Below are positions 57,330 through 61,324 of a stretch of DNA of 64,000 nucleotides, one piece after another. Under the pieces are notes generated by a model, which was not told the DNA's origin, searched no databases, and saw only the letters and a list, made by a program, of their open reading frames with translations. Source of the stretch: Actinoplanes lobatus. GTDB lineage: Bacteria; Actinomycetota; Actinomycetes; Mycobacteriales; Micromonosporaceae. The stretch is from NCBI RefSeq assembly GCF_014205215.1, contig NZ_JACHNC010000001.1, positions 10,226,501 through 10,290,500 of the forward strand, given 5' to 3'. Position 1 is the first letter of the stretch. The number at the start of each line of letters is the position of its first letter. The position numbers and the translations under genes are program-made.

Positions 57330-57352
57330 CTTCCTGTCAGTTTGACAAGAAG
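57330..57352. promoter_or_regulatory. Palindrome before the NUDIX/winged-helix gene, probable NrtR-type operator
   Basis: CTTCCTGTCA-GTT-TGACAAGAAG: 10-bp arms with one mismatch and a 3-bp centre, ending 13 bp before ATG 57366. The core GTCA-n3-TGAC resembles sites bound by NrtR-type NUDIX repressors. Autoregulation is inferred. Confidence 0.65.
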
Positions 57353-57365
57353 CTACATTGCATCC

Positions 57366-58100
57366 ATGGACGACGATTCCTGGGTGCCGCCGGCCGTGCT
57401 CATCGCGGTCGATCTCGTCATCTTCACGCTGCGCGAATCCCGCCTTCAGGTGCTCCTCGTGGAGCGCGGCGTCGACCCGTTCCGCGGCGCTCTCGCCCTG
57501 CCCGGCGGCTTCCTCGCCCACGCCGAGGAGGATCTGCTCGCCGCCGCCCACCGAGAGCTGGCCGAGGAAGCCGGGTTCGCCGCCGACCAGCTGCATCTGG
57601 AACAGCTCAGCGTCTACGGGACGCCGGGCCGTGACCCGCGCGGCCGGGTCGTGTCGGTGGCGTACCTCGCCATCACACCGCGCCTGCCCGAGCCGGTCGC
57701 CGGCACTGACGCGTCCGACGCCTGGTGGATCCCCACCGACCGGGCGCTGTCACCGGACACCCGGCTCGCCTTCGACCATCGACGGATCGTCGCCGACGGC
57801 GTCGAGCGGGCACGCACCAAGCTGGAGCACTCGGCTCTGGCTACCGCGTTCTGCCCGCCGCTGTTCACGATCAGCGAGTTGCAGGAGGTCTACGAGGCGG
57901 TGTGGGGCGTCCGCCTCGATCCCCGCAACTTCTACCGCAAGGTTCAGAGCGTCAACGGCTTCATTGAACCGGCTGGTCCCGTCCGCAAGACGGAGAACGG
58001 GCGGCCCGCGCGGCTGTTCCGGCCCGGCCCACGCCAAGCGCTGCATCCCCCGATGAACCGGCCACCCGAGCCGGGCGCCAGCGAGAGGAGACCCATATGA
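57366..58100 (+). CDS. NUDIX/winged-helix regulator (NrtR-like)
   Basis: A 244-residue protein with an N-terminal NUDIX domain (box GGFLAHAEEDLLAAAHRELA then EEAG, near 50-72) and a C-terminal winged helix (LFTISELQEVYEAVWGVRLD, then NFYRKVQSVNGFIEP) as in NrtR regulators. Those bind ADP-ribose-type ligands and leave DNA. The NUDIX box keeps most acidic residues, so hydrolysis is possible. ATG 57366 follows a palindromic operator. The stop overlaps the next ATG (ATGA): regulator, nucleosidase and membrane protein form one coupled operon, not the usual NAD-biosynthesis setting. Confidence 0.85.
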   Translation: MDDDSWVPPAVLIAVDLVIFTLRESRLQVLLVERGVDPFRGALALPGGFLAHAEEDLLAAAHRELAEEAGFAADQLHLEQLSVYGTPGRDPRGRVVSVAYLAITPRLPEPVAGTDASDAWWIPTDRALSPDTRLAFDHRRIVADGVERARTKLEHSALATAFCPPLFTISELQEVYEAVWGVRLDPRNFYRKVQSVNGFIEPAGPVRKTENGRPARLFRPGPRQALHPPMNRPPEPGASERRPI

Positions 58101-59221
58101 CCAGCGACCTCGTCGTCATCCTCACCGCGCTGAACCTCGAGTACGAGGCGGTCCGCGGCAAGCTCGACAACCCACGGGTCCACTGGCATCCGGCGGGCAC
58201 CCGCTTCGAGACCGGGCGGCTGGGCCGCGACGGCTGCCGCGTGGCGCTGGGGCTCGTCGGCAAGGGCAACCATCCGGCGGCCGTGCTGGCCGAGCGTGCC
58301 ATCGCCGAGTTCTCCCCCGCCGCGGTGCTCTTCGCCGGCGTCGCCGGAGGACTGTGGCCGAGCATCAAACTCGGCGACCTCGTGGTCGCCTCGCAGGTGT
58401 ACGCGTACCACGGTGGGACCAGCGAGGACGACGGACTGAAAGCGCGGCCGCGTGCATGGGAGATCCCGCATCGGGCCGGGCAGATCGCACAGCATCTGAT
58501 CCGCAGCGAGGAGTGGCTGGACCCGTCGGTCGGCGGCGAGCGGCCGACCGTGCACTTCGGGCCGATCGCGGCCGGTGAGGTGGTGCAGGACTCCAGCGTC
58601 TCCGAACACGCCCGGTGGGTGCGGGAGCACTACAACGACGCGCTCGCCATCGAGATGGAGGCGGCCGGGGTCGCTCAGGCGGCGCATCTCAACGAGGCGC
58701 TTCCGATCGTGGTGATCCGCGGCATCAGCGACCGGGCCGACGGCACCAAGTCATCGACGGACGGACAGAACTGGCAGCCGCGGGCCGCCGCGAATGCCGC
58801 CGCCTTCGCCGTCGCACTGGCTCAGCAACTGGTCACCGACAGCACCGCTGGACAGGAGAGGAACTCCGAGATGGGACCGAGCTTCCGCAACATCGCCACC
58901 GGGAACGCGCGAGTGGGCGTACAGGCTGGGCAAATCTTCGGTGGGGCGCACGTCGGGGATCGTGCGGATCAGCCGGTCGACATCGTGGCGGCGATCGCGG
59001 AGCTGCGCCGGCTGGTGCGGGCCGCACACCAGGACGGGCGGCTCGACGACGACACGTACAAGGCCGCGGAGGCGGAGCTCGACGACGCCACCGACCGCGC
59101 CTCGTCCGGGCGTGGCGGCCTTCTGGTGACGCTCAAGCGGCTCAGCGGACTGGTCGCCGACGTCGCCGAGGTCGCCGCGCGCCTGTCAGCGGTGATCGTC
59201 GCGGTCCGGGACCTGTCATGA
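58097..59221 (+). CDS. PNP/MTA-SAH-type nucleosidase with amyloid-like motif and helical tail
   Basis: A 374-residue protein. Residues 1-245 form a nucleoside phosphorylase/nucleosidase domain: LTALNLEYEAV, AGVAGGLWPSIKLGDLVVAS, the ribose-binding IEMEAAGVA (184-193) and the catalytic aspartate in RGISDRAD (near 212). Residues 263-283 carry FRNIATGNARVGVQAGQIFG, which resembles RHIM-like bacterial amyloid signalling motifs. Then follows a helical tail (300-374). The next gene begins with a matching motif. PNP-type domains joined to adaptor motifs are known from bacterial conflict systems, so an N-glycosidic effector acting on a nucleotide or NAD-like molecule is proposed. Substrate unknown. 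Confidence 0.8.
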   Translation: MTSDLVVILTALNLEYEAVRGKLDNPRVHWHPAGTRFETGRLGRDGCRVALGLVGKGNHPAAVLAERAIAEFSPAAVLFAGVAGGLWPSIKLGDLVVASQVYAYHGGTSEDDGLKARPRAWEIPHRAGQIAQHLIRSEEWLDPSVGGERPTVHFGPIAAGEVVQDSSVSEHARWVREHYNDALAIEMEAAGVAQAAHLNEALPIVVIRGISDRADGTKSSTDGQNWQPRAAANAAAFAVALAQQLVTDSTAGQERNSEMGPSFRNIATGNARVGVQAGQIFGGAHVGDRADQPVDIVAAIAELRRLVRAAHQDGRLDDDTYKAAEAELDDATDRASSGRGGLLVTLKRLSGLVADVAEVAARLSAVIVAVRDLS

Positions 59222-61221
59222 CCATGACGGATTTCACCAACACCGCCTCCGGCGACGCGCGGGTCGGCTACCAGGCCGGGATCGTGGTGAATGTGAACGG
59301 CAGCTACAAGGTGCCGCCGGGCGCCACGCCGGAGGAGATCTTCCGGATCGGTGTCGAGTTCTTGAAGGCCCGGATGCCGCTCGAAGCCCGGAAGCTGATC
59401 GCGAAGGCGATCGCGCTCGGCCACGCCACCGAGGAGGTCCACTTCTACCGGCTGCTGGCGCAACTCAGCGGCAAAAATCTGCGCGAGCTGAACAGCGACG
59501 ACATGGAGGGTCTGAAGACGATCTGCGCGGAACTTCCCACGCCGCACGGCAACGACGACTGGACCGTAGGACTCCGGTCGGTGGCGTCGATGCTCACCTA
59601 CTTCTCCGGCGCCGACGAGCCCGCGTTACTGGACAAGGAACTGGCCGGCCTGCCTCCGCTCCAGCGGGAACTGATCGTCGACCACCTCGGCGAACTGCTC
59701 GACGGATCGGTTCAGGACCGGATGTGGCTGCGGTCCGTCGAACGCGCCGGCCAGTTGCAGCTGGCGAACGACCGGGAGAACCGGGTCTGGATCTTCTTCG
59801 AGCCGGAGCCCCGGCGCCCCCGGCGGCGGTATGCCGGACGCCCCAGGTTCCGCTTCGCTGATCTACTCCTGGCGATCATCAGCGGCGGGGCGTTCCTGTA
59901 CGCGGTCGGCAGCATCGGCTGGCTGCTCGCCCAGGGCGGCAAAGCCACGCTCCTGCTCGCCTATGCCGCCGCCGTCGCCGGAACCGCCGTGTCCCTCTGG
60001 TCCGGCTCGGCATGGCACTTCCGGGCGCAACGGGTGCGGGCCAAGGACGCCGAACTCGTGCCGTCCCGGCGTCGCCGCCGGGACGCTCCGGCGGGTGGTT
60101 TCGCCCGCAAGGTGGACCAGATCTTCGACGACTGTTTCGGTCGCTACGTGCCCCGCGACACCGACCGCTCCTACTGGCTGAAACAGACCCGGGGCCTCCG
60201 GGAGCGCCTACGCGACGAAGTGGTGGACATGTACCGGGACCAGCCGGTCAAGGCCGACGAGATCGCCTGGTTGATCCGTCACCTCGTCGCCGACGTCAAA
60301 CAGCGATGGCAGAAGGACACGCTGACCGCCTACCGGCAACGGTGGCGCACTCCGGCACGAATCCAGGCGACCTGTCTCGCCGGGTTGCTGGCCCTCGCCG
60401 GCGGTTGTTTCCACATCGTCCCCGCCATCGTTTCCGAGTCGCCGATCGCTGGGACGGGCTGGGTAGCGCTCGCTCTGATCGCAGCGGTGATCTGTGCCCC
60501 CGCGCTGTTCGCCATCCTCGGCGAGTACCGGCGGATCCCAGCCGACCAGACCGAGTACGACGAGCAGTACCGGACTCGCTCGCTGGCCTATCAACGGTGG
60601 GCGGACAAGCTGGCGCCCCGGCCCTCGGATCGGGAGATGGCCGACTGGCTGGAATGCGATCGCAAACTTCTCGTCGACAAGGCCCTCCGGCAGTACCGGC
60701 TCAGAGCCAGTCAGGTGATCGCGCACGCCTTCATCGAGGCGCCGCAAAGGGGCACCAAACGGGCCCGGGTTCAGCACGGGCCGTTGCGCTACTCGAAATA
60801 CCAGATGCTGCTGTTCCTGTTGACCGACGACGGTGTCCGGCAGGTCAACTTCCTGCACGACTTCGAGAATGCCGACTCCTTCCCCATCGTGCGCCTGAAC
60901 TACCGCTTCGACGCGGTCGCCGCGGTCCGGGTCCACGGCTCACCGACCAGCCGCCAGCACTTCGAACTGACGCTCGTCAACGGTGCACCGATCACCGCCC
61001 TGATCAGCGAGACCATCGACGAGAACATCCGGCCCGACGAGGACGTCACCGCCCTGTCCGAGGCCACGCTCGATGCCTCGGGTCTCCCGCGCACCCTCAA
61101 CGTGCTGGAGGGCGTCGCCGCCGAGGGAAAGGAGTGGATCAGGTACCAGCAGCGGCGGATAGAGCACCGCTTGGAGGTTCTCGGCGACATCCTCGGACCG
61201 TTCCGGAGTACACGGAGATGA
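59218..61221 (+). CDS. Membrane protein with N-terminal amyloid-like motif
   Basis: A 667-residue protein; ATG 59218 overlaps the nucleosidase stop (ATGA). Residues 5-21 read FTNTASGDARVGYQAGI, matching the motif in the preceding protein at 11 of 16 positions. A helical region (residues 35-200) follows. Then come two pairs of membrane helices (about 213-262 and 381-434) and a cytoplasmic C-terminal region of some 230 residues (SKYQMLLFLLTDDGVRQVNF and onward) that I do not recognise. The shared motif suggests physical contact between the two. The membrane part may be a sensor, or a pore-forming effector. Confidence 0.7.
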   Translation: MTMTDFTNTASGDARVGYQAGIVVNVNGSYKVPPGATPEEIFRIGVEFLKARMPLEARKLIAKAIALGHATEEVHFYRLLAQLSGKNLRELNSDDMEGLKTICAELPTPHGNDDWTVGLRSVASMLTYFSGADEPALLDKELAGLPPLQRELIVDHLGELLDGSVQDRMWLRSVERAGQLQLANDRENRVWIFFEPEPRRPRRRYAGRPRFRFADLLLAIISGGAFLYAVGSIGWLLAQGGKATLLLAYAAAVAGTAVSLWSGSAWHFRAQRVRAKDAELVPSRRRRRDAPAGGFARKVDQIFDDCFGRYVPRDTDRSYWLKQTRGLRERLRDEVVDMYRDQPVKADEIAWLIRHLVADVKQRWQKDTLTAYRQRWRTPARIQATCLAGLLALAGGCFHIVPAIVSESPIAGTGWVALALIAAVICAPALFAILGEYRRIPADQTEYDEQYRTRSLAYQRWADKLAPRPSDREMADWLECDRKLLVDKALRQYRLRASQVIAHAFIEAPQRGTKRARVQHGPLRYSKYQMLLFLLTDDGVRQVNFLHDFENADSFPIVRLNYRFDAVAAVRVHGSPTSRQHFELTLVNGAPITALISETIDENIRPDEDVTALSEATLDASGLPRTLNVLEGVAAEGKEWIRYQQRRIEHRLEVLGDILGPFRSTRR

Positions 61222-61236
61222 TCGCGGGTGGGGAGT

Positions 61237-61309
61237 GAGGGCCGACCGGATTCGAACCGGTGTCCTCCGCCTGTGCAGGGCGGCGCGACGACCTCTGCGC
61301 TACGGTCCC
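61237..61309 (-). tRNA. tRNA-like gene, anticodon GCA (Cys), degenerate
   Basis: A cloverleaf can be drawn: acceptor GGGACCG with CGGCCCT (one A-C mismatch, one G-U), anticodon stem CCGCC/GGCGG with loop CTGCACA, and T-arm ACCGG-TTCGAAT-CCGGT. The loop gives GCA, but base 37 is C, not a purine, the discriminator is C where tRNA-Cys has U, and no CCA is encoded. It is likely a decayed or specialised tRNA, not the cell's main tRNA-Cys. Confidence 0.6.
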
Positions 61310-61324
61310 CACTCGCGCGACAGC

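Follow-up and report, generated by a model that had tools for sequence, protein, structure and literature searches.

A nucleosidase and a membrane protein with a shared, co-varying motif in Actinoplanes lobatus: a candidate NLR-free, amyloid-like receptor-effector operon

Organization of the operon

The operon described here is found in a window of 64,000 nucleotides of the Actinoplanes lobatus genome (contig NZ_JACHNC010000001.1, positions 10,226,501 to 10,290,500; coordinates below are those of the window). It consists of three genes on the forward strand. The NUDIX-WHD gene (57366-58100) codes for an NrtR-like regulator of 244 amino acid residues with a Nudix and a winged-helix domain. The PNP gene (58097-59221) codes for a nucleosidase of 374 residues, the putative effector, and the MP gene (59218-61221), defined by gene call and structural model, for a membrane protein of 667 residues, the putative receptor or scaffold. 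Both junctions are four-nucleotide ATGA overlaps, in agreement with a preliminary description of this DNA made by a model from the sequence alone, and the NUDIX/winged-helix and PNP domains named there were recovered by Pfam. The key feature of the operon is a short motif present in both PNP and MP, which changes jointly in the two proteins from operon to operon and which may allow them to assemble with each other.

The regulator matches the Pfam families NUDIX (E 2.2e-16) and NrtR_WHD (E 3.4e-16), and its closest PDB entries are 3gz5/3gz6 (E 2.3e-28). PNP matches PNP_UDP_1 (E 4.1e-35) and the PADLOC effector profile PDLC00759 (1.4e-19). Its nearest solved structures are the methylthioadenosine/S-adenosylhomocysteine (MTA/SAH) nucleosidases, MTAN. 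Residues Glu15, Glu188 and Asp212 are invariant in 38 relatives and are taken by us to be the active-site residues of MTAN. With this presumed equivalence, PNP is by fold and active site a predicted nucleosidase of the MTAN / PNP_UDP_1 type. The motif of PNP (residues 263-278, 58883-58930) is located in a low-confidence linker (residues 254-291), which is followed by a four-helix C-terminal domain in the AlphaFold2 model (residues 296-373, 58982-59215).

The motif of MP (residues 6-21, 59233-59280) is likewise located in a low-confidence stretch, at the N-terminus. The model of MP then contains TPR-like helices (residues about 31-193, 59308-59796), two pairs of membrane helices (residues 213-280, 59854-60057, and residues 380-465, 60355-60612) and one beta domain with a weak PH-like character (residues 502-597, 60721-61008). 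No Pfam family above cut-off and no NCBIfam match was found for MP, and Pfam detected no NTPase domain in it. Foldseek gave no structural neighbors below 0.001. The structural matches of MP to bestrophin and PH proteins are weak.

The shared motif

The fragment FRNIATGNARVGVQAG of PNP was compared with the fragment FTNTASGDARVGYQAG of MP, and 11 of 16 residues are identical, the degree of identity given in the preliminary description. The boundaries proposed there require some correction: the MP copy starts at residue 6 and not at residue 5, and the tail of the PNP copy after residue 278, which had been included up to residue 283, is less shared.

The two fragments align by BLASTP with an E-value of 0.002. 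When MP is shuffled 2000 times, their Smith-Waterman score of 55 is attained in 43 cases; ranked by alignment score, the pair comes third among the 41 pairs of neighboring called genes in the window. This is a modest similarity and only suggestive; as proof of motif sharing, the single-pair statistics are too weak and were dropped. The sharing is accepted as real because of the comparative data across operons presented in the next section.

The motif shows a borderline likeness to a published BASS3 peptide, one of the bacterial amyloid signaling sequences (BASS), with 5 of 200 shuffles reaching the score. In the A. lobatus genome, a degenerate DNA pattern of the motif matches 28 places in forward and 28 in reverse orientation. 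A reversed control gave 18 and 26, so there is no clear excess; called genes at 30 of these 56 places gave one unrelated match.

Co-variation of the motif across operons

The type of the motif differs between operons, and the copies on the PNP side and on the MP side change together. Matched pairs are, for example, NSPVVGQGGTIQGGV with NSPIVGQNGTILGDV in locus L183, GGSHGAVAGIIHGGVHN with GGSHGAVADTIHGGVHN in L116, GNMNVVQAGRIDG with GAVNVVQAKTIHG in L168 and STVGIMGGTVENSSVHVT with STVGIQAEVVHNATVNFT on a Streptomyces plasmid. The co-variation was measured in 63 operons, reduced to 53 at 85% MP identity, with the near relative L144 standing for the window. The set excludes L109 and L128 (for which no partner in the same direction was called), L129, and the loci L111, L115, L117 and L122, which were added later. 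The mean cognate motif score is 58.7, compared with 41.0 ± 1.4 for permuted partners, and it is reached by none of 20000 permutations. For five other MP segments used as a control, 324 to 2850 of 5000 permutations reach the observed score.

Since related operons are not independent, partners were also swapped between nearest relatives and permuted within clusters. The cognate partner wins 29 of the 40 swaps, loses 8 and ties 3 (Wilcoxon p 2.9e-5, the swaps sharing members). When the permutation is confined to clusters of 40, 45 and 50% identity of the MP body, the score is reached in 0, 1 and 4 of 5000 cases. At the level of sequence, the partners do co-vary over deeper divergences, but nothing of this is visible among close relatives: the signal survives clustering at 40-50% and fails at 55-60%. 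In three of the loci added later (L111, L117 and L122), the best alignment between PNP and MP is again the motif, with scores of 59, 48 and 52. The view that the motif co-varies in adjacent genes has thus withstood both the permutations and the tests that take relatedness into account.

The motif resemblance could in principle be due to chance, or to shared ancestry without any interaction. The number of shuffles that reach the score of the window pair and the close relatives without co-variation would be expected in that case. However, the permutations, the relatedness-aware tests and the occurrence of several separate motif types, each matched within its operons, make this explanation very improbable, and it is not favored.

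Distribution and operon variants

A search of a protein collection gave 2464 PNP relatives among 7999 candidates scored, and the fragment Q[AIV]G follows residue 230 in 113 of the 120 best that were listed. The same search gave 23 MP relatives, and a second MP profile search returned the same 23; Q[AIV]G is located within residues 1-60 in 12 of these, in two of them just before the core. Among 300 Micromonosporaceae genomes sampled, MP was found in 76; PNP was found in 60 of 300, with E-values up to 1e-60, and a sample of the phylum contained MP in 2 of 296 genomes, A. lobatus itself included. The distribution among these soil actinobacteria is therefore patchy and centered on Micromonosporaceae. 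Outliers were found in Nocardiopsis (L042, L043) and on the Streptomyces plasmid.

Genes were called by script at the MP loci, and NUDIX, PNP and MP were marked with profiles. The gene before MP codes for PNP in 56 of 73 loci, for a helix-only partner (a motif-helix protein of 99-125 residues) in 12 and for a TIR-motif-helix protein in 2; 2 loci have another gene or none (L109 and L129) and 1 is at a contig edge. This tally combines 69 script-called loci (51 PNP, 12 helix-only, 2 TIR, 3 other or none, 1 edge) with L111, L115, L117 and L122, in each of which stop-to-stop reading revealed NUDIX, PNP and MP. L128 was moved to the PNP class after such frame reading. Eight duplicate loci and MP fragments shorter than 500 residues (such as L110, L120 and L123) were left out. 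In the 69-locus tally, the gene before MP overlaps or touches it in 44 of 51 PNP operons, 11 of 12 helix-only operons and both TIR operons. The conserved adjacency with overlaps that had been anticipated for the three genes thus stands for PNP and MP, but the trio is not fixed, with 12 operons free of an enzyme and with the regulator missing from the 14 helix-only or TIR operons.

These variants suggest an exchangeable effector. The motif-helix unit of PNP is found elsewhere either alone or behind a TIR domain, PF13676 being above the Pfam cut-off in both TIR-motif-helix proteins. An HTH-type gene is located upstream of the TIR operon in L132. The same variants can be read with the signal running in the opposite direction: the motif-helix protein, whether or not it carries PNP or TIR, would be the trigger or adaptor, and MP would be an effector that disturbs the membrane. 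We consider this reversed order unlikely.

Several loci deviate from the common arrangement. In L128 (3333-5210, forward strand), a short degenerate PNP is flanked by a divergent NUDIX gene and by MP; the usual EME and SD stretches of the active site appear to be missing from it, and it is perhaps an inactivated copy. In L109, and also in L041, a reversed gene of 412 codons separates PNP from MP. In L173 (5108-5593), NUDIX and PNP are followed by a motif-bearing protein of 162 residues, another type of partner. Weak motif-helix relatives (L220:6691-7059, L221:5808-6149, L224:6385-6726 and L225:5826-6167) adjoin a different membrane-protein-like gene of 566-593 residues and perhaps represent a second NLR-free pairing. 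In addition, a family of membrane proteins of 176-184 residues with the pattern EYxxLKxEQxxRIxxRDNLxYxT recurs beside PNP operons and beside PNPs of cyanobacterial plasmids (L143:9149-9676, L183:8076-8603, L219:5490-6017, L226:7046-7579, L227:4290-4841 and L228:4214-4765); no Pfam family above cut-off was found in the three members scanned.

The regulator and its palindrome

The NUDIX regulator is present in 51 of 56 PNP operons (38 by the gene caller, 8 by tblastn and 5 by stop-to-stop frames) and in none of the 12 helix-only and 2 TIR operons. The association with PNP is significant in a Fisher test (1.9e-10 for 46 of 51 versus 0 of 14, the rows not being independent). The regulator gene is divergent in five operons of the 69-locus tally and fused to PNP in one. 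The PNPs of the five operons with a divergent regulator are short and end at or soon after the motif.

In the window, the palindrome CTTCCTGTCAGTTTGACAAGAAG (57330-57352) ends 13 bp before the ATG of the regulator and is the candidate operator of the NrtR-like protein. No second full match exists in the 10.4-Mb genome; four places with three mismatches equal the number in a reversed control. Upstream of the regulator genes, where the palindrome reads CTTnnTGTCAnnnTGACAnnAAG, at least 8 of 10 matches to the core TGTCAnnnTGACA are found within 160 bp in 51 of 53 stretches, one of the 53 (L123) being empty, and all 10 positions match in 31. The same level of at least 8 of 10 is found in 3.3% of shuffled stretches, in which only the base composition was kept. 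In 35 of the 51 stretches, a distance of 15-22 bp separates the end of the palindrome from the gene start that was used. It was not found before any of the 14 helix-only and TIR operons, with at most 7 of 10 matches in the 160 bp searched (61 bp in L168).

The link of the palindrome to regulator-bearing PNP operons, its single full match in the genome and its absence from helix-only and TIR operons suggest that the NrtR-like protein is a dedicated auto-regulator of the PNP operons. The NUDIX/winged-helix regulator of the preliminary description can be specified as an NrtR-type protein. By analogy with NrtR proteins, its ligand may be of the ADP-ribose type. The palindrome is also kept (at least 9 matches, within 400 bp) before 4 of the 5 PNP operons without a regulator gene. 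These four loci, L148, L165, L118 and L119, look as if a detectable regulator had been lost or were acting from elsewhere.

Relation to NLR proteins and genomic context

L176 codes for a fusion of a PNP of the same family with NB-ARC and TPR repeats. In L174, the PNP is located behind a NUDIX regulator and overlaps by 4 nucleotides a following STAND-TPR gene of 1493 codons, and in L182 the PNP is found 483 bp beyond a STAND-TPR gene. A stretch of the PNP of L182 closely resembles the N-terminus of the STAND protein of L174 (score 80). A weak helix-only relative in L222 (E 1.6e-4) precedes a gene of 1142 codons that is NB-ARC-like by eye. Since this PNP family also occurs in fusion with NB-ARC or next to STAND-TPR proteins, PNP seems to fill an effector slot that can be driven by NLR-like proteins as well, and MP would hold the place of the receptor, standing in for an NLR.

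The surroundings of the operon are variable, and flank genes are common to only 11 of 1431 locus pairs. The Streptomyces plasmid that carries NUDIX, PNP and MP was typed as mobilizable. A tRNA-Cys gene is located 14 bp past MP in the window (61235-61310, reverse strand). A tRNA gene within 500 bp of the operon was found in 4 of 55 loci, two of them being the window and the closely related L144, where about 0.5 would be expected; this is suggestive only. Genes for Wadjet JetA (DUF2397) directly follow MP in L035 (11181-12716) and L114 (8238-9740).

A role in conflict or stress is the likeliest reading of the operon, mainly from its effector repertoire. Such a role fits because PNP is exchanged for TIR and because NLR-like proteins use the same PNP family. 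The alternative would be a metabolic one: the motif is an ordinary, non-amyloid docking peptide, which tethers to the membrane an NrtR-controlled nucleosidase of the MTA/SAH type and has no part in immunity. The nearest solved relatives of PNP agree with this, as does the fact that NrtR proteins govern NAD metabolism (PMC6800001). However, a household enzyme of this kind is difficult to reconcile with the patchy distribution, the variable flanks and the plasmid copy, or with its replacement by TIR or by nothing. The same sequence is also found on both sides and changes together, as in homotypic assembly. We therefore regard the docking peptide as an improbable explanation.

Proposed mechanism

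The reading that we favor by a small degree is a compact, NLR-free and BASS-like receptor-effector operon, in which MP as receptor would co-assemble with PNP as effector under an NrtR-like repressor. At the sequence level it is built upon the linkage of the genes, the co-variation of the motif, the exchange of the effector (PNP, TIR or none) and the tie of regulator and palindrome to PNP. MP would be anchored by its four membrane helices, with the TPR-like and PH-like parts presumably in the cytoplasm, and would serve as the receptor or scaffold that replaces an NLR. Upon a trigger, the N-terminal motif of MP would nucleate co-assembly with the motif of PNP, probably in an amyloid-like form. 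The clustering could turn on the nucleosidase, which would cut a purine nucleoside or nucleotide, and this activity would lead to a halt of growth or to cell death, as expected for a putative immune or stress response. The NrtR-like protein would repress the operon through the palindrome, and an ADP-ribose-type signal would release it.

A number of observations weigh against the receptor-effector reading. The preliminary description had likened the motif to RHIM-like sequences of the BASS type. The core tetrad of RHIM is [IV]-Q-[IV]-G; the motifs of the window contain VQAG and YQAG, some orthologues have AQVG or AQIG, and the tetrad is not matched by the motifs of the window. RHIM is not among the 18 Pfam families listed for 74 peptides. 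In the Pfam amyloid-model scan, which took 74 of the 110 motif peptides, the best E-value was 0.02, with one Ses_B match; in a separate scan, a Ses_B match of L131 falls below its cut-off. Variants at the same place were found in 11 of the 23 MPs, which lack the N-terminal Q[AIV]G. The co-variation is gone within clusters of 55 and 60% body identity (850 and 1754 of 5000 permutations reach the score), the partial Mantel correlation is low (r 0.18, 8 of 2000), and in L115 the best alignment of PNP with MP (score 41) lies outside the motif. The 12 helix-only operons need no nucleosidase. The PNP-STAND pairs of L174 (23) and L182 (28) have no cognate motif match above background. A search of a phage collection gave no match. 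In a scan of the flanks, 108 of 149 proteins gave 74 families, many of them redundant kinase models, and a control of 88 proteins, drawn from 30 places in a single genome, gave 3 families; these figures count families and not proteins, and they are not used as evidence on an enrichment of defense genes near the operon.

In a wider form, the operon family could represent an NLR-free bacterial amyloid signalosome, in which a membrane receptor with TPR-like and PH-like parts templates interchangeable effectors (a nucleosidase, a TIR NADase or a bare helical bundle) and in which the nucleosidase version is governed by an ADP-ribose-responsive repressor, so that the breakdown of NAD by other defenses could arm it. 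This extension is put forward tentatively and is somewhat doubtful.

Comparison with known systems

The regulator resembles NrtR regulators in its Nudix and NrtR winged-helix domains, in the palindromic site at the controlled promoter and in its likely auto-repression. However, its palindrome differs from the mycobacterial GTTTTCGA-N7-TCGAAAAC (PMC6800001), and its predicted target is the PNP-MP operon and not the NAD genes. Conflict systems with Nudix-HTH regulators are known from earlier work (PMC9503650).

It is important to compare the pair with BASS systems, in which a Bell, TIR or CHAT effector and an NLR share an amyloid motif. The genes are adjacent or overlapping in both cases, a short motif is found in the effector and at the N-terminus of its partner, and the BASS pairs also occur in actinobacteria, with TIR among their effectors (PMC7889193). 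The operon has the shared motif of adjacent effector and receptor genes but not the NLR receptor: its counterpart here, MP, combines four membrane helices with TPR-like and PH-like parts, and no NTPase was found in it. In the fungal PNP_UDP-PUASM-NLR pairs, a PNP effector is likewise followed by an amyloid motif common to the neighboring receptor, and this sharing was tested experimentally (PMC9815663). They differ in the motif, the NLR receptor and the fungal host.

Conflict systems of multicellular bacteria that are coupled by effector-associated domains (EADs) also duplicate a homotypic element between an effector and its partner, whose genes are often neighbors, and use PNPase and TIR effectors (PMC7159879, PMC8195603). 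EADs are folded domains, while the element shared by PNP and MP is a peptide of some 20 residues that falls in regions modeled with low confidence. No membrane partner like MP is described in the available portions of those two reports. The PNP_UDP_1 effectors of Detocs and other immune systems were described as immune ATP nucleosidases (PMC10197012), and PNP resembles them in its PNP_UDP_1 domain and in the PADLOC match. It is structurally nearest to MTA/SAH nucleosidases. We take the trio of NUDIX, PNP and MP to be without the partner genes of the Detocs type.

The PNP-MP operon is not described in the available portions of the literature searched, which was mostly open-access (including PMC8086366, PMC12261475 and PMC12881547). 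A review of amyloid signaling asks whether bacteria have signaling amyloids that are independent of NLRs (PMC7889193). The present operon family is a concrete candidate, and its natural matched and mismatched motif pairs, its swappable effectors and its predicted operator make this question directly testable. If the proposal is correct, membrane-anchored receptors would join the co-assembly signaling of bacteria, and a nucleosidase effector would be tied to an NrtR-type switch.

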